Source of the DNA: Favolaschia claudopus | Taxonomy: Eukaryota; Basidiomycota; Agaricomycetes; Agaricales; Mycenaceae | Direction of reading: 5' to 3' | Length of the DNA stretch: 64,000 nt | Assembly (NCBI GenBank): GCA_037176885.1 | Contig: JAWWNJ010000082.1 | Span: forward strand, 682,001-746,000 | Part shown: one piece after another, positions 10,272 to 34,400 of the stretch | How positions within the stretch are numbered: the first letter of the stretch is position 1 | Layout: every line of letters begins with the position of its first letter | Translations under genes and position numbers: made by a program | Notes under the pieces: generated by a model | What the model was told of the DNA's origin: nothing | Seen by the model: the letters and a program-made list of their open reading frames with translations, nothing else | The model's database searches: none

Positions 10272-12431
10272 CTAGTATTTAAAAGCAGCCGCAAGAAGTT
10301 TGTCAAATATGGGAGATCCAACACCCGCTGAAAAGAATGCCATCAGCCCGAAATACACCGGAAAACAGAACACGAGACATACTAAGCGGATCCCATCCTT
10401 TCGCCGCATCGAACGCAACCTAAGAAGATAAGGCACTGGGAAATTCACTCAATGGGTAGAAAGCAGTAGCTCACCGATTCTGCAGGGCATTCATAGCCAG
10501 AGTTATGTCCCTCAGTAATATCCGTGAACGCATCCATATTAGCGTAGATCCAAGGGTTGAGGAAGCCCAGCACAGGTTTCCCCGCAGTCACGAGTCTATC
10601 GTTGATCATTGCAATTATCGAAGCGAATATCGGGCTCGAGAAGCTCGTCCCCCCAGTATGCACCGTGGTCCCCCGATAAATAAAATCAAGGTTCGCTCCC
10701 TGAACCGCGACGTCGGGATACGCGCGCCCAGACCTATTAAAATGTCCAGGGAAGTCAGCTGGGAGGCCTTTCAAGAAGCTTTCAGCGGCATCAGCTTGAT
10801 ACCGCGGGCGGGGGAAGAGGTTCGAAAAGCCCCCGCCGGTGAGGTTGGTCGCGGCTTCGGGGTGGATGCCTTGTGTGGCACCGACGGCGGTGACCCAGGG
10901 GCAGGAGGCGGGGAAAACCACGAGGAAGTCGTTGCTGGTGCACAGACCGGGGATGCTGCTGTTATCGTGGCCGCCGTACACGCCGCCCTGTGAATCGGCG
11001 GGTGAGTTTCAATTCCGTCCCTTTGCTGGTAAGGAATAGAAGCAAGGACGTACATCTCCGGACCCAAACGTCAGGGAAATCCCCCGAGCGGTGAGAGCCA
11101 GATAGCTGTTGCAGATTTTTCTATTATGGGGGCGATGATTTATAATGTGTGACAGAAAAGTCTGGTCGCTTGCCTAGTCATAGATTCGCTGAGATCCGTT
11201 TCCGTAAGTCCATACGAAGTGGTGACAACGGACGGGGGATTGTCGAGTCCCTCCAAGTAGATGTTGGCTTCAAGCAGCGCGGTAGCAAAGCCATCAAACT
11301 CGGTTGACGGTGTAGCAACAGAGAGGAACTGAACAGGGACCCCCGTTACAAGACCTGTTTCAATTAGAAGAACAAGTGTTCAGTTGAATCGCAGGAACCT
11401 GATGACGAACGAACCAACTCACCGACAGTGTATTCAACATCGAGATCAGCTTCGAGCACAAGGACTGACGCATCCGCTGGGGCAGGCTCAACCCCGTCGG
11501 TGCCAATGTTGATCAATTCATACGTTGTGTTAGCGGGGATATCCAATCTGTAATCCTCCAAGAATGTCTGTAGAATAGAACAAGTCAAGATACGAGCGTT
11601 CGATGAAAAGAAGGAGGAAAAACATACCGAAAGATCAGTTCGGTTGGGGGAGATACTCCAATAACCAGTAACCATGAGCGAGTTATCTTGTTGAGTGGCC
11701 GGAGTTGTCGGAATGCCATACAGTTTCTGCAGGCACGCGGGTGTCATGGGAATCTCCAAGCCGTCGCATTCCTCCTCCTCCTCCGTGCGTTTTACGGCGA
11801 GGCGTTTCTCGAGGTTGCGTAGGCGAGATGAAGAGCCTGAAGAGGCGAAACTCGAGGTGGAAAATGAAGTGCTTGGATGGATGGCTTCGACGTGGCCGAC
11901 AAGCTCGGCCGGAAGGGATATCGATACAGTGCGGGTGATGGGTTGCGGTAAGCTCGCATGCTGGAATTCTTGGAAGTGCGCGCCGAAGAGCTTATTAGCT
12001 GTGGCCACGGTGAGCGTCAAAGATACCCAGTCGCCGTTTGGGGAGATCGTGGTCGGGGCAAGGCCGTTAGAAAATGCGAAGGAATTGAAGGCGCTGACGG
12101 TTTCGTTGGACGGCTGCACGAAAGCTTTGACCTGAAAGGTTTCAATAAGCGTTGCACAACATTCAACAAGTGTGAGACAAACCTCGTCCTTCGAGAGCCA
12201 TTGTCTGAACTCGGAACTTCCAGGCGTGGAGATGGAGGCAAGCTTTTGTTCCAGGCCAGGAATATTCTTGGGAGTCAACGCGAATTTCAACGTCAACATA
12301 TGGGAGTCGGGAGCTGCGCCGAGGCTCGTGAACCCAGCAGGTGCTGCGCGCCGACTTTCATGAACCGCGAGTCGAGTGCCTGAGACAACCGATAGAAGGG
12401 CTAGAATATTTGCAAAGGCCGGGAGGAGCAT
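10272..12431 (-). CDS. TPP3: S53 sedolisin / tripeptidyl-peptidase, intact
   Basis: Secreted acid peptidase of the cluster. Exons 12431-12183, 12131-11628, 11567-11423, 11354-11174, 11120-11054, 10987-10475, 10419-10383, 10327-10272 close in phase, giving about 583 residues. The start is set by alignment with the other copies (MLLPAFANILALLSVVSGT); an in-frame ATG at 12452 would add seven residues. Motifs: LEADLDVEYTVG (Glu/Asp), FGSGD-GG (oxyanion Asp), TGGTSFSSP (Ser), GWDPL-TGVGSPIF. The prodomain carries a Glu-rich linker (RTEEEEECDG). Intron 4 uses a GC donor (AG|GCAAGC) instead of GT. It is the source of the truncated copy at 21.3-22.4 kb, to which exons 1-3 are nearly identical. TTAAATAAG about 35 bp upstream may be the TATA region. 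Confidence 0.95.
11168..11175 (-). other. GC-AG intron donor in TPP3
   Basis: The fourth intron of TPP3 starts AG|GCAAGC, the usual context of GC donors, while the same position in TPP1, TPP2 and TPP4 has GT. The exon junction is fixed by paralogy, so no other donor preserves the frame. Confidence 0.8.
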
Positions 12432-13245
12432 TGTAAGTTTCGTGAAATTCACCGCGGCACCAGTTCAAGTTAAATAAGTGCCGGTGAGGTTCGGAATGTG
12501 GATCGGCGAACACTGAGCCTTAGCGCCAAGGATTCGCGCTACAGAGACAAAAATAAAGAACCGTCGGCGTACGCTTGCAACCATGTCCAGAATCCGGTGT
12601 TCAGAGAAAGCTGACACTGCGTCGAAGTATCCGTGGCGCGAGTATTTCGGACACTGCCAACAATTTTTGTGAATGCCGCGCCGGGGGAAAGATTGCTGCG
12701 CGACGCGCGTTCAGTTGGGACTGAAATAGTCTACGTTATCCGTTCACAGAAACGCAAATCGTTGACTCACAAGCTGTAAAGCTGTCTTCGCCTATAGAAC
12801 TCGGTGTCTAATTGAAAGAGTTTACAATGACGTCCGTGATCCTGTGAACGTCGAATAAATTGAAAAGCTGTATGATGAAGTGTGTAGATCCCATTCAGGC
12901 TTGCCTGTGTGATGGGGATTTGCCGACGCTCATTGACGACGACAAGGAGTGTAATGGTGAAAGAAGCAGCAACTTGAAGCGATCTGGATTCATTGAATAT
13001 CAGTAAGTGCCAGTGGAGCTGGCAGTATTCACTTGGCTTGCACGGATTGAATTCGAAGACGACGAAGACAAGTATAGCGTTGAGTAGGAGGTGATGCAAG
13101 AACACGCTGGCCCGAAGAATGTGGTCCCTTCGTCGAGAAATGCTTGCGCCAGGTGAAGGTTTTGAAGAAGAGACGCGGCTTTGGCTTGGCAACCACTGCC
13201 GAGCAACGGCATTCCGCCTTCCAGCTTTGATTCCCGGCGACACCC
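11366..13245. repeat. Segmental duplication, copy 1 (source)
   Basis: About 1.88 kb covering TPP3 exons 1-3, its promoter and about 0.8 kb upstream. It is nearly identical to 21342-23235 in the same orientation. The left break is in TPP3 intron 3, right after AACACTTGTTCTTC (minus strand). The right end fades after the shared AGCTTTGAT.CCCGGCGAC block. A few indels separate the copies, for example 28 bp present only here near 13070-13098. Confidence 0.9.
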
Positions 13246-13270
13246 GCATCCCATCCCGCCGCAGCTGCCA
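12432..13270. other. TPP3 upstream region, no gene
   Basis: Promoter side of TPP3 and part of the segmental duplication. Minus-strand frames of up to 182 codons are not preserved as one frame in the duplicate, so they are not called. Confidence 0.45.
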
Positions 13271-14456
13271 CGCGAGTGACATCGTTAATGTGCCGCACCT
13301 CGTCCCACCGCCCATTTCTCGCCCTCACCCGAGCACTCTCCATTCGACTCAAGCACCTGCTCCTCTCTCTGGCGTCGCCCGCCGCCTGCCGCCCTCATCA
13401 ATACAGCCGACTTCCAAACGCATCAAACGCGTCGCTTTCACTTCGACGCCCCGCCGCCTCGTTCTCCCCGCCTCCCCACAACCACCACCTACATCACCCA
13501 GCGCCTCGGCGTCGGCGTCGACGTCACCACAAACGTGCGTGTGCGTCGCCGCTGTCTTGTCTAATATTTGCGCTAACTTCTTTTTAGCCCACTTATCCCG
13601 CTGTCCTCTCCCCACCTACCCATCTCACACCAACCTCCACTCTCGCCGCCGCCCCGTCCGCAACAATCGAGTCCCCGCCTCTTCGACGCCGCCGCCGCTC
13701 GCCTCGGGAAGTCGACGCGTATCTACGAAAAGGTTTACAGGGAGTAAGGTGCGTTCTGACGCTCCCTCTCCCTCCCGCGCCCTACTAATGACATTCCCAT
13801 CTCCTTAGCCCGTCCCCTCCCCACCTTAACCTGCACCCGCCCTCATTCCACGGACCCGAACGCCGCCACTTCGCCGACGCCGACACGCGGCCGCAGTCTC
13901 GTGCTCCCGCTGTTCCACCCTCTCGACGCCGTCTCGACGCCCTTTTCCCAACTCAGCTTCGCCGTCCCTCGCCGCGGCCGCCGCCCTCAGCGTTGACGCC
14001 ATCAACGTCGAGACCGTCGTTTCGCCGACTGGCTCAAAAACGAGCTAGAATTCAAAATAAAGTGCGTTTCCTCGTTTTTTGACGGCGAACGAACGAATAA
14101 ACCAACTTACCTATTTCAACAGACCGACGCGCCGCCGCCCCGCGTCACGACAATCATTTCGGCGCTCCGCGCGCCGATTCGCTCAAAATTGCGCTGGAGT
14201 CAAAAATATCGTGAGTTTCTTCGTTTTCGACGCCGAACGAAACGGAACTCACCAAGTGACCAGATCAACGGCGCGTTCGCGCTCGGGAAGGACATTAACG
14301 GGAACAAGGGGAAGTGCCGGTTGGGAGGGAGGAAGTCGGTGCGCGCGGTTGCGCGTTCGCGGCGGACGTGGGAATAGCGGGGATGGGCGCCGGGTCAGGA
14401 AGTCGAAACTAGACGAGATGAAGTCAGTAGCGTATTGTACTGTATCTATAATGTAA
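13271..14456 (+). other. Possible spliced low-complexity gene
   Basis: GC-rich plus-strand stretch with consistent splice signals: GTGCGT..CTAAC..TTTTTAG (about 13541-13587), GTGCGT..CTAAT..CCTTAG (about 13749-13808), GTGCGT..TTTCAACAG (about 14061-14122) and GTGAGT..GACCAG (about 14210-14263). Joining these keeps one frame open through four exons and gives a Pro/Arg/Ser-rich, disordered-looking product ending near 14300. No domain is recognised. It could be a lineage-specific protein, a spliced non-coding RNA, or exonised repeat DNA like the neighbouring arrays. Confidence 0.3.
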
Positions 14457-17120
14457 ATAGCTAATCCAATTGAATAAAATGAAGTTCTTTTCAAAATCTG
14501 CGGGTTGAACCGTCAGTAATTGAATAGTAAACGGCGGCGTACGGCTCGGATTGAGGTGAAATGAAACGGAAGAAAATACTCACCTGTGTTGAAACGAAGC
14601 TGCTAATCCCAAGGGCGCGAGTCAACTTGAAGATTTGAAGAAGATGAGTTATGAAGGGTGCGCTGAGTTGAGGTATCAGCAGCGCACGGAAATGAAGAGG
14701 AGGAAAGCTTACCTCTAGGATTTTCACTTAAATTCAAACCAACGCGAGTCGAATCGAATCGACTCGCTAGGGTTGAACAAACTCGCAAATTCTGGGATTG
14801 AGTTGAAAATCTGGAAATGAAAGTAAAGGTTAGTTGAAGTATTGACAGAGGGATGACGAGTGAAGGAAACAAGATGGAATGAAACGAAGAAAGGCGTACC
14901 CGTCGAGGACTCGACAATGAAGATGAAGTTGAGTTCAAGTTTAACTAGACCTTGAATTACTTACCGGCGAGTTGCAACGAACGAACGAACGAACGAACGA
15001 AAGAGATGAAAGAAATGAACGGAAGCTCACCTCGAATTAGTCGGGATCGGATTGAATGAACTGATAAGCTTGAACTCGAACCTCTCGAAGTGAGTTGAAT
15101 CTTGCATTGATAATGTTAATGCTAGATAGAGAGACTGTGAACGAACGCAAGTTAATTATTAGTTTGAATCGAGTTGAACGAAAGAAAGGAAAGCTTACCT
15201 CGGGCTGACTTGATACTTCCTTCAGTGCAAGTTAGGTATCTCGTTGAATCCGTTGACGGACCTATCCTATAGAAGACAAGAAAGGTTAGGGTCGGCTCAA
15301 ATTAAGATGAAGGTCCGGTTTACTTACTTAGATCCATAGAAGATATATATACCTTCGAGTGTATAGGCGCGGGCGCGCGCGAATCACACCGGCATAGGTT
15401 CGACCTTCATAGTTAACAGGAAGTCAGTCAAGAGTAAGGAATCGAATTTGGACAAACCTGGAACGAAACTGCCATAGTTTCGGCGTTGAATGTGAAGTAC
15501 TTGAACAGTTTGGTGCGGAGATACATGGTTTCGGCCTCCGGCCTTCGAAATTCAAGTTAGAGTCGATAACCAGAGTAAGGAACTGAATCTGAACTTACCT
15601 GGAACGAAAATAGCATAGTTTGGGCGTTGAATGTGAAGTATAGGGAGAGTTTGATGCGGAGATGCATCGTTTCAGCCTTGAGAGTTCAAAAGAGTCAAGT
15701 TAGTATCGATTTGTATAGAGAAATAGAAAGGGTTAGACGTACCGGCATAGTTTCGGTATCGGGTCAAAATAAGGGATTCAACGAAAGCCTACTAGTAAGT
15801 GAAACGAAGTCGGATTGGATCAAGTATTGAACGGGTTAGCGATGCGCACCTTGTACCCAGCCCAGTTCAAAGTCAACTCCAAATCCAACACCACATCTCT
15901 ATGTCGAATGAACTGGCGCCGCCTTCAAACCGTTTGTTGAGACAAGATTAGAGTTAACAAGTAAAAGATCGCACTCACCTGGACGAAATCAACCCAGACT
16001 CGACAAATTCCACCCGAGATTCATGAGCTAAGTCAATCCTGAGCAACTCGGTCAGTGAACAAAGAGAAAAATGGGAAAGGAATGAAGAGGGCGGGATTCC
16101 CCGAGACGGCGCCGAAGTCAATCCAGATCAAAGGTTTGAAGTGTTGTTTGCATTGAATGAGTCAAATTGAAGGTATAGATTGAATTAGACCCTTGGAACG
16201 GTCAGTATTCCTTGATAATAGCGGTATCAAAGCTTACCTAGACAGCCGAAATGTGCATCTCAAGAAACTATCAAACGGTCATTCAAAGTTGAAGCAGTCG
16301 ATAAGAAAGTGACTTACCTTGTGCACCCAGTCGAAATGTGCATCTCATGCACGTATAGAACGAATACAAACTGGATGAAGGATCAATAAGTAAGAGTTCA
16401 AAGTAAATCAAAGGATTAATTCACTCACCTGTAATGCAAAGTCGTCGAAATAAGACCTGAAGGCAACTTGAAAGTCAGTTCCGCGTTGAAAGAGTCGAAA
16501 TGTGCATCTCATACAGTTTGGAAATGAATGGAAACTGAATGAAAGGTTAGGAACGGCTTGAGGCATTCAAAGAAATCAATTCACTCACCTGTACAAAGTC
16601 GTCGAAATGACCTGAAAGTCAGCTCGGGCTTGAAAGGATCGCAGTTTGAAGTACATATAGCATAGAGTGAAGAGAAATAAACTGATTGAAAGGTCAGTAA
16701 TCATTTGAATGAGGAAAGACGACGACTCACTGCATTGAACAGATTGAAGTGGTACAAGAAGAATCTAGTATGCCGTGAACCCGAACAGAAAGCGGCGTAC
16801 TAGTAGTAGAACAAAGTATTGAATCTAGAATTGAAGGAGAATGTTAGTGAGTGTATCAAACTTGAATGAATGAAAAGGGAGTTCGAAGCCACAAACGACA
16901 TTAGAGTCAACGAAAGAGTCAAAGAAGGGAGAAGGCCGAATAAATCCGAAAGCCGTGGTTGAAGCGCGAACGCGTCGAATTGAAGAAATTGAAGAAGGGC
17001 TTTGAAGGAAAGTTGAATAGAGATTTGAATAAAGATGAGTTGTGGAGGATAAGGAAGGGTAGAAGGGAGGGAGGTGGAAAGTGGGCGGTTGACCCATACC
17101 AAAACTCAACGAGATGAGCT
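14450..17120 (-). repeat. Minus-strand array of duplicated exon-intron units
   Basis: Read on the minus strand, this 2.6-kb stretch holds about 16 splice-donor consensus sites (AG|GTAAGT, CAG|GTGAGT types), roughly every 100-200 bp. Many are followed 40-60 nt later by CTAAC-like branch sites and CAG/AAG acceptors. At least two families of tandem units are visible. In 15.45-15.75 kb, exons 15676-15599 and 15535-15458 are both exactly 78 nt, phase-0 symmetric, and encode similar 26-residue peptides (AETMxLRxKL ... YFTFNAxTM ... SFQ), period 141 bp. In 16.24-16.65 kb, units share GAGATGCACATTTCG and ACGACTTTG blocks. Some exons contain stops, so the whole may be non-coding. Nothing known is recognised. 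Confidence 0.6.
15458..15676 (-). other. Pair of duplicated 78-nt symmetric exons
   Basis: Exon 15676-15599 (after CTCTCAAG, before GTAAGT) and exon 15535-15458 (after CCGGAG, before GTTTGT) are separated by a 63-nt intron with a CTAAC branch site. Their 26-residue translations agree at 19 positions, counted by eye. Length, phase and splice sites all agree, so an exon-plus-intron unit was duplicated. Confidence 0.6.
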
Positions 17121-18550
17121 CACCTTTATACCATTCCCCCGGCCCTCCAACGCTATCCTGCTCACCAAATCACCCGAACATCCGCAGAGATCGACAGAGC
17201 GTCTTGGGAATTGCGGAGCACCGAGCCATTCAGTGGGAAAGGGCGGAACTCGAGAAGTCGCGGCGAACTCGAAAATATTCATAAGTTGGCAACCAGATCC
17301 ACGGAAATTCCACGCACGTCAGGCAACATCCGTGTGACTAATGATGTGACATTCAGGGTCGTAACGCCGGGGGAGGGGGGAAAGAGGTCGAAAAAGCAGA
17401 GGATTGAGATAGGGGTGAGTATGCGATGGAGGCGTGAAGACGAATCGACGAGCTTCAAGACTTAGGGAGCAGCAGAATTCAGTAGTTTGAACAAGATTTT
17501 GAGGGCCAAGAACCGGGGATGTCAGCATGATGCGCCCATGGAAGCGAGGCATTTTGCAACACACCTGAATTCATCCGGTCTCAACTCCGCTCCAAACAAC
17601 TCCGACCGCTCCAGAACCTTCTCCGACGTCGCGGGTATCCAGTAGCTACCGGTACCGTATATTCTGAGTCATACGTCGTGCGCAGACGCTGTCCAGACGG
17701 CGATTTTAAAAAATGCGTGCAAGTGCCGTTGTGCCGTTTTGCGAGGGTCCCTGAGCAAAGAAAGGCAAGAAAGCATGAGTTTCAAGGTAGTAGTATGTAA
17801 GAATACATACTTGAGTCGCGAGGGCAGCGACGCGCCGCGCGCGCAGTCGTCGATGGTGGTGGTAAAAGCCAATGTTCGGAATTTCCTGTTTGAGCGAAGA
17901 TATGATTGATCTGATCGCAGCGGCCAACACCGCCACGAGAATCTTCCTTGCTCTTTGCCCACGACCAGCCCGCCAGCGCCAAGCGTCAACATATCGGCAT
18001 GGCGCGCTCACGCGCGCGCAACGCGTCTGGGCCGCAAATCGACTGAAAACCACCGTATCTAATCCCATGGGACTATCTTGACAGTTTTCTGCGAGCCGTG
18101 AGCTGGCTCGGGCACCTCGCGGGGCTTCTCTGGGCGACCGCTCGGGCTCGGCTGTCTGGTTTACGAAAATCTGATGCTTCTCAAACAGCCAACTCCGTGC
18201 TTCTTGTCCTCACTCTTGGCTCACTCTGGCAGTTTTCTGTATTTTGTGGCTTTGGCTGAAGGCGGCCTGCGTTTTCAAGAAACCGACGCAGGTATTCTCT
18301 TGCGAACGTCCGGCTCGCTGTCTGAGTTGCCTCGTTCGACGAACGCGAATCATTTATGTTACGTATGTACCAGTGTTTCAAACAGGAATCACAGGGAGGA
18401 GGTACAGGTCCGAATTTATCTGCTTACCTTTTTCAGCGTCGTGCACATCTCTAGTTAGAATAGTTTCGCTTCTTGGGACAGAGGCGACTTTTTCTGATCT
18501 TTGAATGGTGAGCTAATCAGTCCTCTCAAAGCTTAGGGTGCTGAGGAATT
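17121..18550. other. Central spacer between the two arrays
   Basis: About 1.4 kb between the oppositely directed arrays. No gene is supported. If the arrays are transcribed outward from here, this would be their shared promoter region. Confidence 0.35.
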
Positions 18551-20900
18551 GAGAAACACGGTTTCAGGGCGGCTCCCGACGCGTATAAGTCAGGCCGGAC
18601 TTATCAACTTCCGGAAGGTGATTCATTCAAAAACAACGTTACCTACAAATTTCACCGATTTTGTTGCAACGGAGCATCAACCGACACCGTTGGGGGAACT
18701 AACACGACCAAACCAGCCCACCTTTCTCTCCACCACCACCTTCTCCTCAGGTTACCACTCAAAAATTCCCTTCGTGAGTTATTATCCGTTCCTTCCACCG
18801 CTCCTTGAAGACTCCTTCTCATCTCATCTCCTCAGCGACCCCGGCAAGCCGTCGTTGACGCTGACACCAAGCCGCCGATGCGTCGACACGACGTATCGTC
18901 TTCCCGTGAGCGGGACTTTAAGTAAGTTGCACCTATTTCACTATTTTTACTCATTTTGATGCCTTTTTTCACCAGGATTTGGCCGCCGGCAGGCTAACCC
19001 CGCCCCCGAAGCGTAAAGCGGCGTATTCCACCACTGTTCTCTGACGCTTGCGCTGTTGCCGCCGTCAGCGCCGCGCCGCGCAGCGGCGCTATTGCGTCGA
19101 TACGATGTATAGACTTCCCGCGAGCGGGACCTTCAGGTAAGTTATCTTTTGCTTCCCATTTCTCACTTTTGATCCTTTTTTTTTCCAAGAGTTTGGGCCG
19201 CCGGCAGGCTAATATTGCCCTCGACGCGTAAAGCAGCGACTCCCCCCCCCCCGCCGTTCTCCGCCGTTTGTGCTGTTGCCGTCGTTGCCGCGCCGCGTAG
19301 CGGCGCTATTGCGTCGACACGACGTATCGACGTCCCGCGAGCGGGACTCCCCCAAGTAAGGTTTCTTTTGCTTACTTTTTTCACTCAATTTGACGCCTTT
19401 TTTTCAAAGTTTTGGGCCGCCGGCAGGCTAACCCCGCTCCCGACGCGTAAAGCAACGGCTTCCCCGCTCACCTCGCCAACACTGTGCTGTTGTTGCTGCC
19501 GGCGCCGCGCCGCGTAGCGGCGCGCATAGCGATGAGTATATGGATCTTCTTCCCCCGAGCGGGACTTCGAGTAAGTTAGTTAACTTTTGCTTCAATTTTT
19601 CTTCCTTTGACACATTTTTTGTCAGAAATTTGGCGGCCGGCAGGCAAATTCCCGCTCCCGACGTATACAGCAGCGGGTCTTCCAGCTCATTTGCAAGGCT
19701 TTTGTTGTCGTTCTTGACGTCGCACCACGAAGCGGCGCCATCCCCTTAACACGACGTATCGCCGTCCGGCGAGCGGGTACTTGGGTAAGTTCCGTTTTTC
19801 TTGCATTTACGTTTTCTTTCTCTTACGATTTCTTGGAAGGATTTTACAATTTACGGCAACTTTTTCCTGACATCGGTTAGTCTGAGGTGAGGTAAGTTTT
19901 CAACTCTTACCTACTCTTATCCAAGCCACTCCCACGTCGATCACTATGCGTATCGCCGTCCCGCGAGCGGAAGGTTCTCTACTGTGCGCTCATGGTTCAA
20001 TTTCAAATGTATTTCATGCTTATCTTGAACTCCCCAGATTCAAATTTCTTCGCTGCGCGGCCTTGGCAACGCCGCCCTCATGCCCCACAATGAAACTTCA
20101 ATATTCTTGCGTCCGCCGAGCGACGCCTCAAGCCTGTACTCCTGTCAGTAAGCGCTGTTGTTCTCACTGCATTTCCGCTGATGCTGGATCTCCAGATAAT
20201 TTTTCTTCCGCTGCGCGGCCTTTACCATCACCACCAACCCTTCAAATCGAAATTCGATTTTCGTGCGTCCGCCGAGTGACGCTTCCGAGTAAGTTCCTCC
20301 CCAAATCCTGCTTGTTTGCTCACTGATTCAAGCTTTCCAGGAAATTTTGTTCCCGCTGCGCGGCCCCCTGCTTCGTCATCAACGACAACACTCCGTTTGG
20401 TAAATTCGAGATTTCGCGTTCCCGCGAGCGAGCCCTCGGGCTCGATGGTCTTCAGGTGAGTGCTACTGCTTTGCTAGAGTCGTTTTTGCGCTGATTTGAA
20501 GGGCTAGATATTTTTGCTTTCCGCTGCGCGGCGCTCAACTCCTCAAACTCTTCAATTCCCGGGCGTCAAATCTAGCTATCAAGTCCCCAAGAACGAAGAA
20601 ATTTTCTGCGCTGCGCGGCTCCCTACGTGCGTACTCTACCATTTCTACTGTCTTCTTCAAACTTGTCAATTCTCCTCCCAACTACAATTTTCTTCCGCTG
20701 CGCGGCGCCGTCGATAACTACGAGTTCTGGAATATTTCCTCATTTTCAGGTCTCTAAGTTCCTCTGTGGTTTCGTCTCGGTGAGTTTCTTTGAGTTCTCT
20801 TCCATTAAGTCTGGTTCTAACAGATACAAGGGCTCCAAAGGTGACTAGACGACTTGAAATTCACGAAGAGTGCTAATTACAGGTGAGTCTCGGACTTGTG
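18550..20900 (+). repeat. Plus-strand array of duplicated exon-intron units
   Basis: Tandem units, each an exon-like block plus a short intron. In the first half, blocks 18976-19136, 19190-19355, 19410-19570 and 19626-19784 (161, 166, 161, 159 nt) are separated by introns 18922-18975, 19137-19189, 19356-19409 and 19571-19625 (54, 53, 54, 55 nt) that begin GTAAG and end with T-tract plus AG. Each block begins TTTGG(G/C)(C/G)GCCGGCAGGC. Each carries a hairpin related to CGCCGC-GTA-GCGGCG and ends with GTCCCG-CGAG-CGGGAC or a close variant a few nt before the donor. The second half (19.95-20.7 kb) has units whose 5' end holds CCGC-TGC-GCGG. Block 19410-19570 has stops in all three frames, which favours a structured non-coding RNA. 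Confidence 0.65.
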
Positions 20901-21341
20901 TGTAAATTTCAGTACGTACAGAATTCAGGGTCTGGTCTTGTCCCCGGTAGTCGGTAGATCTAGATCTGTAAAACAGTAGATTAGAGCTCCCGATTCACCC
21001 TCCAAACGGAGCGGGAAACGGGCTTCTTGTGGGCCCGAAAATCAATTTTTTTTTCGAGCCGTAAGAACCAAACAATGCTCCCCTTTGGGACGCGCTCCGA
21101 AAACACATATAACTGCGAGGTCAGGGCGACGCATGCCTTAGCGTGAGCAGGCCGTGCGCAGTGCTTAGGAATTTCCTTTTCGGGAGTCAAGCCAATTTCA
21201 TTCAAGCTACATACAACAGGCAGTAGACTACACGACTGGACATCCCAATCCCACAACGACGTCGAGCCTCCGGCAACGCAATCCTGGATTGCGACAGCGG
21301 CGCCGTCGGTGTTGGATGCGGCGGTGAGACATTTCGGAAGA
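20901..21341. other. Unique spacer before truncated TPP3 copy
   Basis: No gene. Begins after the last array unit and ends at the left break of the segmental duplication. Contains a T9 tract near 21050. Confidence 0.4.
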
Positions 21342-22409
21342 ACAAGTGTTCAGTTGAATCGCAGGAACCTGATGACGAAACGAACCAACTCACCGACAGT
21401 GTATTCAACATCGAGATCAGCTTCGAGCACAAGGACTGCCGCATCCGCTGGGGCAGGGTCAACCCCGTCGGTGCCAATGTTGATCAATTCATACGTTGTG
21501 TTAGCGGGGATATCCGATCTGTAATCTTCCAAGAATGTCTGTCGAATAAAACAAGTCAAGATACGACTCGGAGCGTTCGATGAAAAGAAGGAGGAAAGAC
21601 ATACCGAAAGATCAGTTCGGTTGGGGGAGATACTCCAATAACCAGTAACCATGAGCGAGTTATCTTGTTGAGTGGCCGGAGTTGTCGGAATGCCATACAG
21701 TTTCTGCAGACACGCGGGTGTCATGGGAATCTCCAAGCCGTCGCATTCCTCCTCCTCCTCCGTGCGTTTCACGGCGAGGCGTTTCTCGAGGTTGCGTAGG
21801 CGAGATGAAGAGCCTGAAGAGGCGAAACTCGAGGTGGAAAATGAAGTGCTTGGATGGATGACCTCGACGTGGCCGACAAGCTCGGCCGGGAGGGATATCG
21901 ATAAAGTGCGGGTGATGGGCTGTGTGAGGCTCGCGTGCTCGTAGTCTTGAAAGTGCGCGCCGAATAGCTTGTTGGCTGTACCCACGGTGAGCGTCAAAGA
22001 TACCCAGTCGCCGTTAGGGGAGATGACGCTGGGTGTCACACCGTTGGCGGACGCCCAGGAATTGAACGCGCTGACGGTTTCGTTGGACGGCTGCACGAAA
22101 GCTTTGACCTGAAAAGATTTCAATACGTGTTCTACAACATCTAACAAGTGTGAGACAAACCTCGTCCTTCGAGAGCCATTGTCTGAACTCGGAACTTCCA
22201 GGCGTGGAGATGGAGGCAAGCTTTTGCTCCAGGCCAGGAATATTCTTGGGAGTCAATGCGAATTTCAACGTTAACATATGGGAGTCGGGAGCTGCGCCGA
22301 GGCTGGTGAAGCCAGCAGGTGCTGCGCGCCGACTTTCATGGACCGCAAGTCGAGTGCACGAGACGACTGATAGAAGGGCTAGAATATTCGCAAAGGCTGG
22401 GAGGAGCAT
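21342..22409 (-). pseudogene. TPP3 copy truncated in intron 3
   Basis: Exons 1-3 of an S53 gene, 22409-22161, 22108-21605 and 21538-21394, with intact splice sites and open frames, nearly identical to TPP3. Homology stops inside intron 3, so exons 4-8 are absent. The product would keep the signal peptide, prodomain and catalytic Glu/Asp (LEADLDVEYTVG) but lack the oxyanion Asp, Ser and calcium site. Reading through intron 3 ends after about 10 residues. No frame damage in the kept part points to a recent event. It may be an inert remnant, or a free secreted prodomain. Confidence 0.93.
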
Positions 22410-23235
22410 TGTAAGCAAGTTGCGTGAAATTCATCGCGGCACCAGTTCAAGTTAAATAAGTGCCAATGAGGTTCGGAATGTAGATCGGCGAATACTGGGC
22501 CTTAGCGCCAAGGATTCGCGCTACAGAGACCAAAATAAAGAACCGTCGGCGTACGCTTGCAACCATGTATGTACTCCAGAATCCGGTGTTCAAAGAAAGT
22601 TGACACTGCGTCGAGAAATCCGTGGCGCGAGTATTTCGGACACTGCCAACAATTTTTGTGAATGCCGCGCCGGGGGAAAGATTGCTGCGCGACGCGCGTT
22701 CAGTTCGGACTGAAATAGTCTACGTTATCCGTTCAGAGAAATGCGAATCGTTGACTCACAAGCTGTAAAGCTGTCTTCGCCTATAGAACTCGGTGTCTAA
22801 TTGAAAGAGTTTACAATGACGTCCGTGATCCTGTGAACGTCGAATAAATTGAAAAGCTGTATGATGAGGTGTGTAGATCCCATTCATGCTTGCCTGTGTG
22901 ATGGGGATTTGCCGACGCGCATCGACGACGACAAGGAGTGTAATGGTGAAAGAAGCAGCAACTTGAAGCGATCTGGATTCATTTGAATATCAGCCTGAGC
23001 CGCTGCCAGGCTGGCAGTATCCACTTGAATTGCGCGCATTGAGTTCGAAGACGACGACGACAGGGTAAGAACACGCTGGCCCGAAGAATGTGGTCCCTTC
23101 GTCGAGAAATGCTTACGCCAGGTGAAGGTTTTGAAGAAGAGACTGCGGCTTTGGCTTGGCAACTACTGCCGACCAACGGCACATCGTTGGCCGGGAAATC
23201 CCCGCGGTACCGGAACAGCTTTGATGCCCGGCGAC
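21342..23235. repeat. Segmental duplication, copy 2
   Basis: Direct-orientation duplicate of 11366-13245. Includes the promoter region and the upstream segment with the same GTGGTCCCTTCGTCGAGAAA block. Small insertions near 22417 and 22567 and a 28-bp absence near 23067 distinguish it from copy 1. Confidence 0.9.
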
Positions 23236-23553
23236 CAAAAGCTCTGAGTGCCGATCGGCATGGAGTGCTTCGTTGAATTTTGAGCTTGGAGGTGTTGGCG
23301 TATATCGTCAAAGGTTTCGAGATGGACACTGGATTCGGAGTACAGCTTGAATATATTCCAGATGGACGGAAAAATTAAACTCTTCTGACAGCAAGAACGT
23401 TAACAGGAATCCAATTTCAAATTTCTCTTGCATAACCAACGATCGTGAATGTAACTACTATTAAATGACTGTCCGCGCCTTACACGACAAGTATTTGGTA
23501 CATATTAAAGAGGTACTGCCGAGTATCCGAAGTGCTCAGCCTACTAAACGAAT
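23236..23553. other. Intergenic, TPP4 3' flank
   Basis: No gene recognised. Lies between the end of the duplication and the TPP4 stop codon. Confidence 0.45.
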
Positions 23554-26767: not shown

Positions 26768-27830
26768 TTCAATTGGATAGCTAGCCTCTGCTCACACCCA
26801 CCGACGCTGCCACGTCAAGACCCGCCGAGTCCCTACATCCACGCTGAGTACCATCTCCCTCGAGCTCGACGCACTCGCAGCAAGACGACGCTACAACCAA
26901 AAGTCCTCGTCAGCTCCTCGACCAGCAAGAAAAGAACGAGGTTGAGACGACGTGCCCTTCGGAGACGGCAAGGAAGATGTAGAGATGTACATTCAGTCAA
27001 ACCAATATGCCCACATGGGGAGGAACAACTTCGCGGCGCCGCCCCATCCGTCACCTTCACCCTCCGCTCGAAACGAAGCTCCCTCCGCTCAACAACTCAT
27101 CCCCGCCCCCACCGGCCTACGCCGTCCCCCAACTCCCTTCCTTTCGAAACATTGCGCACGACGTATCAAGCCCTCGCCCACTGCATCTCGCTTCTCGCCA
27201 CTACCCTCGCGTCCACCAACCCACCGACTCGCCCGCCCTTACCGTCGCCGCCGTCGTTCGCGAAGCTGATGCAAACGGGTATCTGCTATTACAGGGAAAG
27301 AAATACATACAGGTACGTAGACCCGTTGCCTCTCTTCCCGTGCCTCAATAACTCCACGCCCTCTAGTGTGCCACTATGATCCCTTGGCAAGTACCCACCG
27401 CCGCCGCCGCTCGACCCCGACTGCTGCCCGACCACCGCACCCACGCACACCACCGTCCCGTTCCGTCCGCCGCCCGCTCTCTCACCACCCTCGACTCGAC
27501 ATTCAGCACCCAGCTCAAACCCCCCGCCTACTCAAAGCCGCCATCAAGACTTCGCCCGCCGACACGGTCGAGAAACCGCGCTGAAAAAACAATAGGTAAG
27601 TTTCTTGTTCCAACGCTGTCGTCCGCCAACACGCCCCTATAAGGTAAGGAGAAGGGTACGTTTACCTTTTCCCTCGGGTTCTGTGCCGTACTGAAGCTGC
27701 CGCTACTTTCTCCAGCGCTCCTTGATCGATGCCGCTGCACCAACGATTGCCGCCACTCCGCCGCTCGTTCCACTCTCCCTGCTCCCAACTCAACCCCCAC
27801 CTCTCACCCCGCTTGTCGACATTTTCATCG
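26768..27830 (+). repeat. Dispersed 1-kb repeat, copy 1
   Basis: Matches 35122-36052 in the same orientation, sharing CACCGACGCTGCCACGTCAA at the start and CTTGTCGACATTTTCA at the end. It includes a shared GT-AG intron-like segment (ACATACAG|GTACGT ... CCCTCTAG). The copies agree over a possible frame (PALTVAAVxREAD, then LLLQGKKYIQ). No product is recognised and the frame is broken elsewhere, so it is called a repeat or relic. Confidence 0.7.
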
Positions 27831-28989
27831 TTTTGAACGTCGGCTTGCGCGAGTCTGCTGTCAGTTAGAAATCAAATCAAAGTGAGCTCTTTTTGTCTTT
27901 TGATAGTTGATAGCGAATGAATTGGGAATATGTACTTACTATACCGGCGCAGCCAGAACCAGACAGTTTGCGCGGGTTCCGTCGCATCTCGCGCAGGGTG
28001 GAACGAGGAGGTTGATGCGCATTTGCGCGTTGGTTGCGGAACGAGGGTAGAGGCAGGTCGAAAGAAGTCGATACTGTAGGTATCGTACTTTTCGTGTCCG
28101 TAGGCACTCGAATGAATGAAATCAACTTATTCTGGAATGAGATAGAATCTTCAAGTTCCAAGTGAAAGACTGGCTCGGAATCCGGCAGAGATGAAGATGA
28201 ATAGCTTCGTCATACCTGCCACCAGCGTCTAGATCTGGCACTCACGAGTACTCACGATTCTAGAGCACCCGGCACTAAAAAATCCGGTGGAATTTCACGG
28301 TGGCGCCGGTTTTCAAGTCCAATCAATAATGATATCAAGGACTGGCGACTTGCAGGGACGATGCCAAAACTTTAAATGTGAGTGGTGGAAAGCGTTCCTT
28401 TAGTTTGAACGCTTCGTGTTGGTGCCATTCCCAGCGCTGTTTCTCAGATCTAGAAGGCCAACAACAACTGTCAGGGTTCAGTTCCGGGAAGCACCGACGG
28501 ATTTCTATCCATGTTGCGGTGCGCGACACTGGACCATACGGTACGCTCATAAAAATAAGCTGGTTCAAGCTTATGGTTCCGGTTTCTATAAATTACTTAT
28601 CGGATTATTCTTGACAGTTAAACGTCACAGAAAAGATGATTATTCTCTTCGAAAGCTCAGATTTGAGTTGCACTTCACACCATCCTGTGGATTGATCTAC
28701 GTGAGACCAGAAGAAACCTCCCTCAACTTGCTTGAACTTCAATATTAATATTTGATAGGTCACAATTCATGGTTGGGGGCCCATCCGTTCTATCCGCACG
28801 CACGTATCACGGATGTTTAGGCAAGCGATTGGACTCGGAAGGGAGATGATTCCCATTCTATTATAGTCACGATCTCTTATAGGAATTCAGTCTCAGGCTA
28901 CCGCCTTGGATCTTGGATCCTACCGCATAGGCTTACTTATAATGGACTACATCCGTTGTTGTCTCGAGGGTCGTACCTCGTTTACCTTC
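27831..28989. other. Intergenic, no gene recognised
   Basis: Only short unsupported frames. It includes the upstream region of the DUF6533 gene. Confidence 0.4.
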
Positions 28990-30761
28990 ATGCCTCAGGC
29001 AGACTACTTCACAGTCCTCACTCAAGCACAGTGGGAGCGCAATTGCCAGTGTAAGTTACAATTCGAGGCCCTGCGTCCCATTGAATGGCTCACCGAAGTC
29101 CTCCTCTAGTTGCCGCTGCGATGATTGTGGCGTATGAGTACAGTAAGTCGCTTTACCGTTTCCGGAATATGCGGTACTACTAGTACGGTCTGATTCTTTA
29201 CCCTTAACGTCTAGTCCTGCAATTGCCCAACGAGGTATGAGTTATACTCGTCTCGTGAACTTGGCATGCTCAGCTTCTGACGAGGTGGATTTGTTCTGGG
29301 TGATCACATTTTCTCCGTTTACATTCACTCGCCAATTGCGCTGGCAACTCATCGTTATGTAATGTCTTTAGAGAAAACGATGGACCATCGCGAAGGGTTT
29401 GTTTCTGTGGGTTCGTATCCACTCATCCTTGACTCTATCCATCTCATCAACAATTCTCCTAGAGTCGCTATTATAGTCTGGCATACAATATGTGCGTACT
29501 TATGTTCTGCTAACAGTGGGGATGGTGATGAAATCAACTTCGCTTTCCCAGTGGAAATGCCGCAGGTCAGTCCATGCAGCAGACTTCAAGCGATTCTGAA
29601 ACAGTCCATCGATGGTAGTCTTCATGCAAGCTCATGCTTCGGAAGAAGTGCGATCCCATTTATTTCTTTACCAAGGACTTTTGCTAATCAAGGCCCTGAC
29701 AGCTGTATGTCCTCTGCGATAAAGTTATCGACCTTACCCAACCTCCAGCTGTGAGTAAATTCGAGACTTCGGTGACAGAGATCAATTCTAATCCCACCTT
29801 TTCCAGGTTTGAAATTCTTCGTATGGCAAAACGGAGGTTCTATCATCCAACCCACCACCACCCAATGTGAGCTAAATGCTTGCCTTGCTATCCTCTTGAA
29901 TAGATGGTCAATCTAGTGATCTTGTCGCTTCGGCTTTACGCGATGTACGCCAGGTAGCTTATCTCATTTTCCGATTCAATTCTTAGTGCTCATTCCAATT
30001 ACCTTCAGGAGCAAGAAGATACTTGCACTCCTCATGTTCGTTATCTTATGTCAAATTGCGGGCTTGATTGTCCTGCTTTATGTCCCTCAACCTGGCCTTG
30101 TGGGTGTGTCTCTCAGTTTCCACCGTTCAATTATAATTTTCATTAATCAGCCGTTAACAGCTGAGAACAATCCTGCCTTCGGTCTCTACATTTGCGCAGA
30201 TGCGGATCCGGAGCATGTACATTGGATCGCATACGCACCTATGATTAGTATTCTAGGAGAGAGCGTATTCCTTGCGCTGGCCATGTTCAAGGCTCTTGAA
30301 CAACGTCAAGCGCCTGGTCGAATTCTTCCTCGACTCACCAAAGAGTCCCTCTTCTTTTTCACGGCGTGCGTTACATTTAAATTCACTGATTTCGTGCCTT
30401 GCACTTAAATCTGCGATTAGGATCCTGGGCATTCATGTTGGAAACTTGACGTGCTGGATGGTCAATAATGTACGTTGAATGCCCAAGCTAGTCTCACTTA
30501 TCACAAACTGACTAACTTCCCACTTGGCTCCACTGGCAGCTATCCACGAACGAATTGTTCACGGGATTCGCCTTTTCGATCCCGGCGGTCCTCGCAAATA
30601 GGCTACTCATTTCGGTCCGCGAACAGGTAGAAGAAGACACGATAGTAGACAGCCATCCATCGCATCTGCTTCAGTTCAATCAGCCTCGACGTCTCGCATC
30701 GGAAACAATATCTGGTGATAGCATTGAGTTGCGATCGCGTAAAATCATCGGAGATTGTTGA
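28990..30761 (+). CDS. DUF6533-type multi-pass membrane protein
   Basis: Basidiomycete-specific seven-helix membrane protein of unknown function. Resolved exons: 28990-29050, 29110-29142, 29215-29234, 29285-29299 (15-nt microexon), 29372-29410, 29463-29491, 29552-29565 (tentative), 29807-29866, 29917-29953, 30009-30099, 30151-30365, 30421-30469, 30540-30761. They read through the family landmarks: NCQ-FAAAMIVAYEY-ILQLPNE-VDLFW-RKRWTIAKG at the N-terminus, KFFVWQNGGS, LSLRLYAMYAR-SKKILALL, a loop with YICADADPEHVHWIAY, and the C-terminal STNELFTGFAFSIP / LANRLLISVREQ block. Exons between about 29566 and 29806 were not resolved, so the middle may be mis-modelled or damaged. The apparent frame break near 29411 is an intron with a GTTCGT donor, not a mutation. 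Confidence 0.75.
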
Positions 30762-31391
30762 ACCGGAGACTATTGGGTCCTTTTGGCTGAGTACTTTGTT
30801 GACATGTATATAATATATTGCCTGAATTCATGTATCTGTTCAATGTTGTTGGTCAGTTGACAGTTCAACAAGAAAAATATAGACTCGCAGCTCACGGTAT
30901 AGTCGGATATCGAAGGTGCCATGCAAGAAGAAGCTGACAATCCTGACAGTCCTTTTGTTGAATTGGGGTTCTTCACCGTGACATAGGCCTGGACCGGTAT
31001 TGTGAATGTCAGTTCAATTGGTCATGAATTTTCGTGGTCTACTTCGTCGCAGTACTTATTAAATGATTGCACTGGGGAATCAAACAGCGGCGGCGCGAAC
31101 TGGAGGAAGTTTTTAGATTGAACCAAATACAAACCCAGTATATGTTACCTAGAGTTGAATCTAGTAATAACATTCAGTCTGATTCTGGTGAGTAATCGAC
31201 AAAGGAATGCATACTTGAAGACACTCTTGCCCGAATCTTCCCATGATCTTCCCGGTGGAACGGCGATACGTAGGCTGATAGACTGATACTTAGCCTCGGA
31301 TTCGCCTCGAGGCCGATGAGTCCGGGATGATAAGTACACCAAGCGCTTCTTGCCACCGGCCACCGTTTGTGCACTTTGCTCTCTCTCGACC
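30762..31391. other. Intergenic, no gene recognised
   Basis: Between the DUF6533 gene and the permease, both on the plus strand. Holds the permease promoter; no other feature is seen. Confidence 0.45.
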
Positions 31392-33655
31392 ATGTCCCAC
31401 AAGTCCCTCCCGAAAACAACTAGTGAGGAGGGGCAACCTTCCAATGATACCACTGTCCTCGCGAATCTAGGCTATAGACAAGAGCTGAAGCGGGAATTTA
31501 CAACTCTGGAGATGTTCGGTTTCGGGTTCTCTATCATTGCAATCGTACCCTCCATTGCGTACAATATTCTTTGACAAGTTCACCGGGTCCCTGATATGTT
31601 TCATAGCTCTGTTCTTTTCTATTCAGTGCCTAACGGCGGGCCGCCAGCGATGATCTGGGGGGTAAGATTATATCGCTGGTTACCAAGCTTCTAGTTGTCT
31701 CAATCGCACGCCGAGAAAGTGGGCTGTATCGTCCATCTTCATCATGTTCATCGGTCTGGCAATGGCAGAACTCGCATCTGCGGCTCCAACGTCTGGTATC
31801 ACACCCTGTTGCCTCCGAAGCAACCTGATTTACCATGGCCTTTAGGTGGGTTGTATTACTGGACCTATAAATATTCTTCCCCGAGATACGGGAACTTCCT
31901 GAGCTGGATGGTTGGCTATACGAATACCATAACATATGTGGCTGGGACCGCTGGTTTGGCTTGGGGAACTGCGACCGCAATCATGGCTGCGGCGGCAATT
32001 AGTACCGACGGCGATTTTGTTCCAAGTGTTTATCAAACCTAGTATGTGGAGATGATTGGTGTATTCCGATTTCCAAAGAGACTGACTCTCGATTATAGCG
32101 GTGTATATATTGCCGTCTTAGTGACATATGGCTTTATCGCCAGCTGCGCTACGCGTATTCTGGCATTTATCCAACGCGGAGTAATTTTGTTGAATTTATT
32201 GTGAGCCAAACCCTCCGACATCCAGTGGTGGTTCCAGATGCAGATGATGCTTTGCTTGCTAGACTGGTTCTAGTCATGATTATAGCGCTTCCAGCCGCCA
32301 CTCCCTTAGAGCTTAGGAATCATGCAAAATACGCGTTCGGAGGGTTCGAAAATCGTCAGCACCTTCCTCATTATCCGCGCGCTTCAATTGAAGTCATTGC
32401 TATTCAGTAACCACCTGGCCCTCCGGTTTCGCATTTATCCTGAGCTTTTTAGCTCCTTTGGTCAGTTTTGAATTAGCTTCACGCTCCATTGTTGCTCTCG
32501 CTGAGTCGTTTAACAGTGGACGATTGGTTGGTCTTCGTTATATGTTTGTTGGGAATCCGGTAAAGCTCGTTTCAGGTGGTTTTGATGCGGGTGTACACAT
32601 CAGCGAAGAGGCTCTCAATGCAAGTGTCGCCGTTCCATGGGCAATTATATATGCCTGCGGAGTGGGGACGACGTTGGGCTTCTTTGTTCAGATTGCTCTC
32701 GCCTTCTGCATGGGTCCGGATACCATAGATATTCTTTCAAGCCCCGTTCAACAGCCTATGGCCACGGTACATTAAATACAATTCAGGGACATATAGAATT
32801 GATTTGCTCTCAGATTTTACTCAACAGTTTCGGAAAACGAGGGATGTTGGCTGTGTGGTCTTTCGTTATCGTCGCACTGTAGGCTGCATTTCTTTCTGAT
32901 ATGTTGAAGTCTCATGAACTCTCGATAGTATCCTCGGAGGTTCAGGACTGGTACGACTACAACCTCGTAATTAGATCGAATTTAACGGATATTTCAGCTC
33001 ATCTCGTCTTCACGTCAGATATTCGCGTAGGCAGTTTGCTCGGTTGACATTTGTATTGACCCAATGGGAATCATCAGATTTTCGCGGGATGGCGCCCTCG
33101 TATTCGCTTCATTTCTTTACAACATAAATCCTACCACCGGCACTCCTGTGCGCAGCGTCTGGTTCTCGGTGGGGTGCGCTGCCCTTCTTGGACTCGTGGC
33201 ATTCGGAGGTCCCTCTGCGGCAGGCGCAATTTTCTCCCTAGGTGTTGTGGGTCAATACGTCGCGAACTGCATCCCTATATCCGCGCGTTTTCTTGGTGGA
33301 CAAGAATTCAAACGCGGACCATTTCACTTAGGTCCATTTGTACGTCCCGCTTTCTCGGATTTTGTCTCTCAATCTCGATCTTTTGGTTTTGTCTTTACAG
33401 AGTCGTCCTGTGGCGTTCATAGCTGTTCTGTGGATGTTGTTCATGACAGTCGTTCTCATGTTTCCGGCAGCTCGGGACCCAGACTCTCAGTCAATGAACT
33501 ACACTGTGGTTGTTCTCGGGGGCGTGCTTCTTATTGCGTTAGCCTACTACTTTGTTCCCGTCTATGGCGGAGTAAACTGGTTCCAAGGGCCGAAAGCAAA
33601 TGTCGACATGGAGCTGGAAAGGTCGGAGTCGGAGGAAAAGGTTGATGCCGCGTAA
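31392..33655 (+). CDS. Amino-acid / GABA-choline type permease (APC family)
   Basis: Plasma-membrane or vacuolar transporter of amino acids or related amines; about 12 helices, about 524 residues. Fourteen exons, all in phase: 31392-31558, 31607-31661, 31720-31795, 31846-32041, 32099-32200, 32263-32354, 32408-32460, 32517-32526, 32576-32766, 32814-32878, 32929-32950, 32998-33026, 33078-33339, 33401-33655. N-terminal LGYRQELKREFTTLEMFG and FYSVPNGGPPAMIWG, then GLYYWTYKY, LELRNHAKYAFGGFEN, and the conserved APLWTIGGFDAGVHISEEA that identifies the fungal GABA/choline/amino-acid branch. Exon 8 is a 10-nt microexon encoding the WTIG of that motif. The exact substrate cannot be assigned. Confidence 0.93.
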
Positions 33656-34230
33656 ATAATCTTCATGATGTATGCATGGAAAATACAATAATATTCGTTT
33701 CAATGACACATAGTGTCAACTCATTTCACTGGGTGCATGCCAAAACCACCACACCTGAACGAGCCACGCAAATTCAACATTTCTTGACTCGTGTTTGACT
33801 TGAATGTTGAAATTCGGACTTCTCGGGGATGTTCAACTTCTTATAAGTACTATCAGCGAGGGGTTAGCTGGCCACCCCCCTTACTCGGCTATTTGCGTTT
33901 TATGTAGGCTACTGAGTGTTTTGGTGTATGGTTCCGGTCCAGGGACAAGGGACACAATAGCGACCTAGACGATGGTGCAGGACAAGTTGTGGGAGAATTG
34001 AGCGATGTGATCAACCGTTATGGCATCGGCGTCGTCGTTCCGGGACGTGTGAACCCGGTTTTCTTGGCATTACCCGACACCCACTGGCACGTCTTGCGTC
34101 CTCCCTAACTGCACACTTTCTGTGCCGAGTGAAGTCGTTGTGGGATCATTTTCAAGCCACAAGTCTTTTCAAGCCACAAGTCGTTTCAACCGCACCAGAT
34201 AGGCTTACGATGGAATACCCCGATGTAATC
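33656..34230. other. 3' flank of permease with an 80-bp dispersed repeat
   Basis: No gene. 33751-33838 carries the repeat described below; the remainder shows nothing recognisable. Confidence 0.45.
33751..33838. repeat. Dispersed 75-90 bp repeat, copy 1
   Basis: Matches 43545-43620 in the same orientation; both end with GAAATTCGGACTTCTCGGGG followed by ATGTTCAACTTC. Both copies lie a few hundred bases or less from gene 3' ends. Confidence 0.75.
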
Positions 34231-34249
34231 AACACATGAACGCGGTAGT

Positions 34250-34400
34250 GTTTTCCTGGCTTGGCTTGGCCCGAAAGCCATGGCTTTGGCCTGGCTTTTG
34301 CTGGCTTTGGCTCAGGAATTTCGAAGCCAGAGCCATGGGCCAGCGAAAGCCAGGGCCAAGCCAAAGCCGCTGGCTTGGGCCATGGCTTGTGACGAAATTT
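34250..34400. repeat. GGCTTGGC palindromic low-complexity block 1
   Basis: Dense TGGCTTGGC on the left and GCCAAAGCCA / GCCAGGGCC on the right, so the strand can fold back on itself. A related block lies at 34725-34860. Confidence 0.7.

Follow-up and report, generated by a model that had tools for sequence, protein, structure and literature searches.

Known systems and the repeat in the window

Tandem LTR retrotransposons have N+1 flanking repeats for N internal parts, and the terminal repeats of an LTR retrotransposon are part of the element and common to its copies, which also carry a gag-pol coding region. TIR DNA transposons have terminal inverted repeats and produce a short target duplication of fixed length; Helitrons produce none and have 5' TC and 3' CTRR ends with a hairpin. 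LINE- and SINE-type retroelements have an A-rich or simple-repeat tail, and the lncRNA genes of fungi are spliced and non-coding. In Arabidopsis, genes that have transposed are bordered on both sides by direct repeats derived from the target site (Woodhouse et al. 2010, PMC2869330). In the portion of that study available to us, the insert lies between direct repeats that match the orthologous, mostly genic, target site, the tabulated long repeats measure 30–550 bp, and the inserts are single genes (PMC2869330). In human cells deficient in NER, insertion of LINE-1 is reported, in the available part of the source, to create kilobase target duplications (median 1,495 bp) that are explained by a distant second nick (PMC5223499). 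The corresponding part of a study of the basidiomycete yeast Cryptococcus describes the entry of inefficiently spliced transposon RNAs into RNAi (PMC5851062).

The window analyzed here is a stretch of 64,000 nucleotides from Favolaschia claudopus (C82:682001–746000 of an assembly of 264,566,041 bases in 460 contigs). The host is a wood-decay mushroom, and its family is known for large genomes. Within the window lies a copy of a repeat, here called E, that is flanked by duplicated segments of host DNA, here called X. No description of this repeat was found in the literature searched, and the available part of the F. claudopus genome paper describes no repeats (PMC10905254).

The loci that carry E resemble tandem LTR retrotransposons in having N+1 flanking repeats for N internal parts, but the flanking repeats are host DNA that is unshared between the seven loci compared. 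As in the Arabidopsis case (PMC2869330, as far as available), the insert lies between direct repeats that match the target site; the repeats around E are longer (1.4–2.9 kb), E occurs at many loci rather than as a single gene, and it is often found in arrays. A kilobase-range target duplication is also the point of likeness to LINE-1 in NER-deficient cells (PMC5223499, likewise in part). LINE-1 uses an RNA template and ends in a poly(A) tail, whereas E retains the predicted introns of both its opposite arms and, in the last 60 bases of four copies, has no A or T run longer than 4. The arms of E are like fungal lncRNA genes in being non-coding and, by prediction, spliced, and are unlike them in belonging to a dispersed repeat with many copies, two opposite arms, and duplicated host flanks.

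A putatively spliced array within a larger repeat

The array that first drew attention to the window consists of exon-intron units on the plus strand, with the following features.

18922–18975, plus strand: intron of 54 nt (pattern scan and unit comparison)
18976–19136, plus strand: exon of 161 nt
19073–19089, plus strand: central exon motif GCGCCGCGNAGCGGCGC, with a 3-nt loop whose middle base differs among units
19118–19130, plus strand: donor-side motif CCGCGAGCGGGAC, also at 18904, 19335, and 19553 (motif search)
19137–19189, plus strand: intron of 53 nt (unit comparison)
19190–19355, plus strand: exon of 166 nt
19356–19409, plus strand: intron of 54 nt (unit comparison)
19410–19570, plus strand: exon of 161 nt
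19571–19625, plus strand: intron of 55 nt (pattern scan and unit comparison)
19626–19784, plus strand: exon of 159 nt
20148–20195, 20289–20340, and 20456–20507, plus strand: candidate later introns (pattern scan)

On re-measurement, the lengths of these introns (54, 53, 54, and 55 nt) and exons (161, 166, 161, and 159 nt) were exactly those given in the preliminary description, and the motifs that it had noted as recurring are well above chance, with 16 matches in the window to CCGCGAGCGGGAC (up to 2 mismatches, 1.6 expected) and 14 to CGCTGCGCGGC (up to 1 mismatch, 1.5 expected). Tandem Repeats Finder, run on the window, also detected the array (periods 217 and 219). Stops in all three plus frames, which had been attributed to one block, are present in two of the four exons.

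For comparison between copies, 46 of 101 unit matches were partial and were dropped, leaving 55 full units from 19 array copies at 17 loci on 15 contigs (loci C4 and C61 contribute two array copies each); all of the splice-signal, hairpin, and fold counts reported here come from a single MAFFT alignment of these 55 units. The donor column of this alignment contains GT in 51 of the 55 units (CT in 3, GC in 1), with the next-best column for GT reaching 41. Of the 55 units, 49 have a YTNAC branch-like site (frequency in shuffled sequence, 0.28). These data demonstrate that the array preserves its primary sequence and its spliceosomal signals across copies, as had been claimed for the splice sites, and the conserved donor and branch signals are those expected of a spliced non-coding RNA gene.

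The extent proposed at the outset was 18550–20900, but the feature to which the array belongs reaches from about 13.2 to 21.3 kb, with duplicated host DNA beyond. Based on comparisons between loci, the best reading of the array is that it represents the right-hand transcript arm of E, a larger, dispersed, non-coding repeat of ∼8.1 kb. The preliminary description had not recognized that this array makes up half of a dispersed repeat with kilobase duplications of host DNA at its flanks. The parts of this larger feature are as follows.

11367–13240, minus strand: X1, left copy of the host segment, with the 5' half of an S53-type peptidase gene and upstream DNA
13241–21336, no strand: repeat E including the right-hand filler (8.1 kb; from cross-locus homology and comparison of X1 with X2; no coding signal found)
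13241–17700, minus strand: left arm, a predicted leftward, intron-rich, non-coding transcript (right limit approximate)
17775–18450, no strand: stretch between the arms (∼6–16% substitutions), a proposed divergent promoter
18500–21240, plus strand: right arm, a predicted rightward, spliced, non-coding transcript containing the array (start approximate)
21257–21336, no strand: filler at the junction of E and X2 (80 bp, with matches elsewhere in the genome)
21337–23272, minus strand: X2, right copy of the host segment, with a truncated peptidase gene reading towards E, running into the right host flank

The window and six other loci share 14172–21219, and a more sensitive comparison extended the shared sequence leftward to 13380 and rightward to 21240; the X-E border was set by the comparison of X1 with X2, and the left end of E is poorly defined between copies. 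Introns were sought by pattern in eight copies (two of them from locus C4, and the one from C13 incomplete at one end). In all eight, the left 60% of E has an excess of minus-strand intron patterns (10–24, compared with 2.2–3.6 expected) and the right 40% an excess of plus-strand patterns (3–9, compared with 1.1–2.0), whereas the other two combinations of strand and arm are near expectation (1–6 versus 2.3–4.4 and 0–2 versus 1.4–2.6). A peptidase-gene region of the window has a similar strand bias (10 minus-strand patterns versus 4.0 expected, 1 plus-strand pattern versus 6.4), so a bias of this kind marks spliced transcription units generally. In a substitution profile, few parts of E are better conserved than the stretch between the arms, and 16.9–17.2 kb is conserved to the same degree. 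From these observations, we infer that a promoter in the middle of E could drive a divergent pair of spliced, non-coding transcripts.

A protein-coding array was rejected. When the E copy of the window was aligned to five others over 14175–21150 (13241–14174 is too little aligned for this comparison), no conserved reading frame was detected, only 1 of 89 overlapping windows showed codon-position bias, and the length of 792 of 950 indels was not divisible by 3; the initial claim that the array does not encode a protein is supported. The identity of the array as a tRNA was also rejected, as was membership in a known Rfam family, since there were 0 Rfam matches at the gathering score and the best match within 13.2–21.4 kb was a single one of 15.4 bits (E-value 0.88).

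Matches to E are spread over the genome. A 311-base query from the array has at least 116 matches (40 of 268 candidates scored), and queries from 16.5–17.0 kb and 20.2–20.7 kb have at least 64 (40 of 172 scored) and at least 54 (40 of 157 scored), respectively. The marker exon motif GGCYGCCGGCAGGC occurs 576 times genome-wide, compared with 16 occurrences of a reversed control. Among 100 of its places that were listed, there are 52 copies of E at 24 loci, 15 of which are tandem by a spacing rule of 7–13 kb and carry 43 of the 52 copies; the tandem units among these places are ∼10 kb long, with a median spacing of 9.8 kb. By extrapolation, the E family would number about 300 copies. A satellite consists of tandem monomers without unrelated spacers, whereas E is found at dispersed loci with different spacers, which agrees with the earlier view that the array is not a plain satellite. 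When the 27–36 kb region of the window was considered as a second E, a 5.5-kb query from it fully matched only itself (40 of 125 candidates scored), and its other matches were short repeats.

Host DNA on both sides of E

The most surprising feature of E is the duplicated host DNA on both of its sides. In the window, X1 (11367–13211) and X2 (21337–23181) are 91.8% identical, with the last ∼29 bp of X1 and the part of X2 beyond 23181 assigned by eye. X1 runs on leftward into the rest of the S53-type peptidase gene, and the open reading frame at 11364–12452 within it contains the Pfam domain Pro-kuma_activ. E interrupts the S53 gene in the window and, at locus C7, a gene that we take to be RPL24 (named by eye from its translation).

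At all five of the loci that were read on both sides (the window, C88, C7, C82b, and C4), direct copies of host DNA that is specific to the locus border E on both sides, in the layout X-E-X or (X-E)n-X. There are two copies of E and three of X at C88 and at C82b, three and four at C7, and four and five at C4. X measures ∼1.4–2.2 kb as a single piece and reaches 2.9 kb if a further, displaced piece is included (C88 and C7), and the first and last X of a locus are 87.6–97.9% identical across the five loci. Two further loci are consistent with this layout by position only, with E between copies of X that are 17 kb (C13) or 14 kb (C24) apart; at C24, the X segment is present in five copies on the same contig, so a pre-existing gene family could mimic X-E-X there. 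An eighth locus, C61, is without a left flank and was left out of the X count.

Between the seven loci compared, no match was found outside E. In addition, neither the E of the window nor the E of each locus itself had a match in the outer flanks of the five loci, over 2.7–2.8 kb on the left and 6.5–9.7 kb on the right at four of them and over 11.4 and 40.7 kb in the window. Genes or long open reading frames were seen by eye in X at seven of the eight loci, and all are oriented towards the right end of E. A 378-base piece of the left flank at C4 has an inverted match in the stretch between the right end of E and the next X.

Sites homologous to the window locus that carry one X joined to both flanks (H1-X-H2), and no E, are present on contigs C6 and C29. 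Across the left join, positions 1–1181 of a 1201-base query are matched at 96% identity on C6 and 95% on C29; across the right join, the match covers positions 2–1301 of 1301 on C6 (86%) and 14–1301 of 1301 on C29 (82%). The sites without E span 3,323 bp (C6) and 3,347 bp (C29), compared with the 3,331 bp expected after removal of E and one X. X1 is 96% identical to C6 and thus nearer to it than to X2 (91.8%), which counts against an ordinary target duplication and calls for either the loss of E from C6 or the origin of X1 and X2 from two chromosomes.

The right end of E is alike in the window, C88, C7, C82b, C24, and C43, is partly shared by the first copy of C61 and by C67, and is absent from the stretches inspected for the second copy of C61, C4, C13, and C34. 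Filler DNA sits between this end and X. The 80-bp filler of the window has a second copy on its own contig at C82:766351–766433, at a distance of 63 kb (92% identity), and C6 and C29 each carry one further match (97–98%); because the filler appears to be copied from elsewhere, it suggests break repair with template switching. The left ends compared have no clear common terminal sequence, which is odd for a defined element.

In four copies, a comparison of the first with the last 400 bp gave no TIR at an E-value of 0.05 or below (the left ends being uncertain), and there was no terminal direct repeat in these copies. On the features compared, known transposon classes were rejected for E as follows: a TIR DNA transposon by this result and by a duplication of 1.4–2.9 kb that is different at each of five loci; an LTR retrotransposon by flanking repeats that are not common to the seven loci compared; a Helitron by the host DNA duplicated beside E, whereas Helitrons make no target duplication; and a LINE- or SINE-type retroelement by the lack of an A-rich or simple-repeat tail, as the longest A or T run is 2–4 in the last 60 bases of the four copies (right end only).

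Origin of E and alternative explanations

Based on the above comparisons, we favor, with a probability of about 0.55, the reading that E is a repeat that is mobile or captured at the level of DNA, whose joining to a new site would duplicate kilobases of target and be followed by unequal exchange, and which would be transcribed outward. E would be copied as DNA, because every one of the eight copies scanned has intron patterns in both of the opposite arms, a finding that speaks against a single RNA template. It would then be joined at a break with sides offset from each other by kilobases; such a break could be staggered over a long distance and filled in afterwards, or it could be one-ended and repaired from the sister or homologous chromosome with template switching. 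Joining at such a break would yield X-E-X, and unequal exchange between copies of X or E could produce arrays or remove E. Transcription would probably run outward from the middle of E, and the preserved splice signals may serve not a folded RNA but stable transcripts that evade RNAi and keep the chromatin of E open. It counts against this reading that no source of a transposition enzyme was found for E.

The X-E-X layout could also stem from exchange between older copies of E, although we consider this unlikely. One E would have inserted to the left of X and another to its right, on two chromosomes, and unequal crossing-over within E would then have given rise to X-E-X and to the tandem arrays. 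No special insertion mechanism would be needed, and X1 and X2 do look like different alleles, judging by the closer match of X1 to C6; C6 matches X2 plus the right flank at 86% identity, and the first and last X differ by 2–12% at the five loci. The published assembly of F. claudopus CIRM-BRFM 2984 (265 Mb, PacBio) is reported, in the available part of its description, to contain 86.8% duplicated BUSCO genes, which makes a mixing of alleles plausible (PMC10905254). However, exchange of this kind requires two insertions of E in the same orientation ∼1.4–2.9 kb apart at each of five loci, and the outer flanks searched there hold no match to E.

It is less probable still that E derives from a known class of transposon as a non-autonomous remnant with terminal signals that escaped detection, a view that overlaps with our favored reading and differs from it in the source of the enzyme. 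The dispersal of E and its similar right end at six of the loci looked at are what such a remnant would have, but neither a TIR nor a terminal direct repeat is present in the four copies, the flanks are locus-specific, and the target duplication is in the kilobase range.

We hold it to be quite improbable that E is a functional family of host lncRNA genes, duplicated with its neighbors under selection, and not a selfish or mobile repeat. The splice signals preserved across copies and the common orientation of the genes in X at seven of eight loci (by eye) would fit such a family, but E recurs at many loci whose partner DNA is not shared, homologous sites exist without E, and it cuts host genes (the S53 gene and the presumed RPL24).

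The preliminary description had inferred a structured RNA from the hairpins in each unit. In the 55 units, the central hairpin is paired in 361 of 381 cells (shuffle mean, 361.6) and the donor-side hairpin in 224 of 311 (shuffle mean, 222.6; shuffle maximum, 235); the stem next to the donor, described as perfect in the best copies, is so only in some units. In the 55-unit alignment, neither named hairpin showed covariation. In folding, the exons do not outperform shuffled sequence (z-scores of -0.01 to -0.77). The consensus fold of the exon alignment scores -7.05, compared with -0.28 for shuffled columns, which counts toward some structure; this fold pairs columns other than those of the named hairpins, and its covariation term (+0.15) provides no bonus. 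From these results, we conclude that selection on the hairpins as RNA structure is not supported. A spliced RNA whose hairpins are under selection for structure is therefore very improbable, even though paired-arm motifs recur in nearly all units and the consensus fold lies below that of shuffled columns, as the named hairpins do not covary, the folding of the exons is no better than after shuffling, and the donor-side stem is broken in many units.

The good splice sites kept in both arms of a repeat without proteins call for an explanation. By analogy with Cryptococcus, the kept sites might reflect escape from RNAi directed against badly spliced transcripts, as far as the available part of that work describes it (PMC5851062). 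A stronger claim, that E is the first described protein-less mobile DNA whose insertion normally duplicates 1.4–2.9 kb of target and seeds a tandem array, and thus duplicates neighboring genes under the drive of a divergent pair of spliced RNAs, is one that we put forward tentatively and with more doubt than belief. If the kilobase duplication of host DNA belongs to the insertion of E, then E would be a natural test case for the capture of DNA at staggered or one-ended breaks and a recurrent source of tandem gene duplication in this 265-Mb genome.

Central hairpin-like motif of the right arm

In the exon-intron array of the right arm of E, the dispersed non-coding repeat, the central exon motif lies at the following positions.

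Window 19073-19089: GCGCCGC-GNA-GCGGCGC
Window 19290-19306: GCGCCGC-GNA-GCGGCGC
Window 19507-19523: GCGCCGC-GNA-GCGGCGC

The loop base N of this motif varies by unit (C, T or A), and the G and A of the GNA loop are retained in most array units. GNA loops form very stable DNA hairpins. Six exact copies of CGCTGCGCGGC are present on the plus strand in the later part of the right arm (window 20051-20706); another exact copy, at 19075-19085, has the minus-strand orientation. In the earlier array exons, part of the central hairpin motif reads as the reverse complement of CGCTGCGCGGC, so this motif switches strand midway through the right arm.

Other repeats and a second duplicated segment

Two further sequences were found next to or within X, the locus-specific host DNA present in direct copies on both sides of E, at other loci in the assembly, and a second pair of direct repeats was found in the window.

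C13:2092539-2093073: ~535 bp repeat, inserted within or beside X of locus C13
C4:2558442-2558819: 378-base piece, left of the left X copy (X1) at locus C4
Window 27051-27832 and 35244-36049: direct repeat pair, 78% identical to each other

The ~535 bp repeat, which occurs with up to 98% identity in dozens of places among the matches listed, appears MITE-like, as judged from its size and spread. The 378-base piece has an inverted match (79.6%) to the stretch that separates the right end of E from the next X at C4, and this match is possibly another filler copied from nearby. The 7.4 kb between the window direct repeats carries a permease-like gene (named by eye). Contigs C6 and C29, which have the homologous site with a single X and without E, each carry the repeat segment once, broken into two pieces, so the 27051-36049 region looks like another, older insertion flanked by duplicated host DNA.

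Host genes in X and the right end of E

The window also contains a gene cluster.

Window 4600-26000, minus strand: S53-type (sedolisin) peptidase gene cluster, several paralogous copies

In X at seven of the eight loci examined (the window locus, C7, C4, C61, C13, C24 and C88), a gene or a long ORF could be made out, mostly by eye, and in each case this gene or ORF points to the right end of E, which is the direction of E's left arm; none was recognised in X of the eighth, C82b. The X of C7 additionally contains the start of a gene in the opposite orientation. In C7 and C82b, the minus strand carries TTGAATAAAAT at the right end of E, a sequence that could act as a poly(A) signal for host genes that run leftwards out of X and into E; C88 and the window copy have TTGAATGAAAT there.
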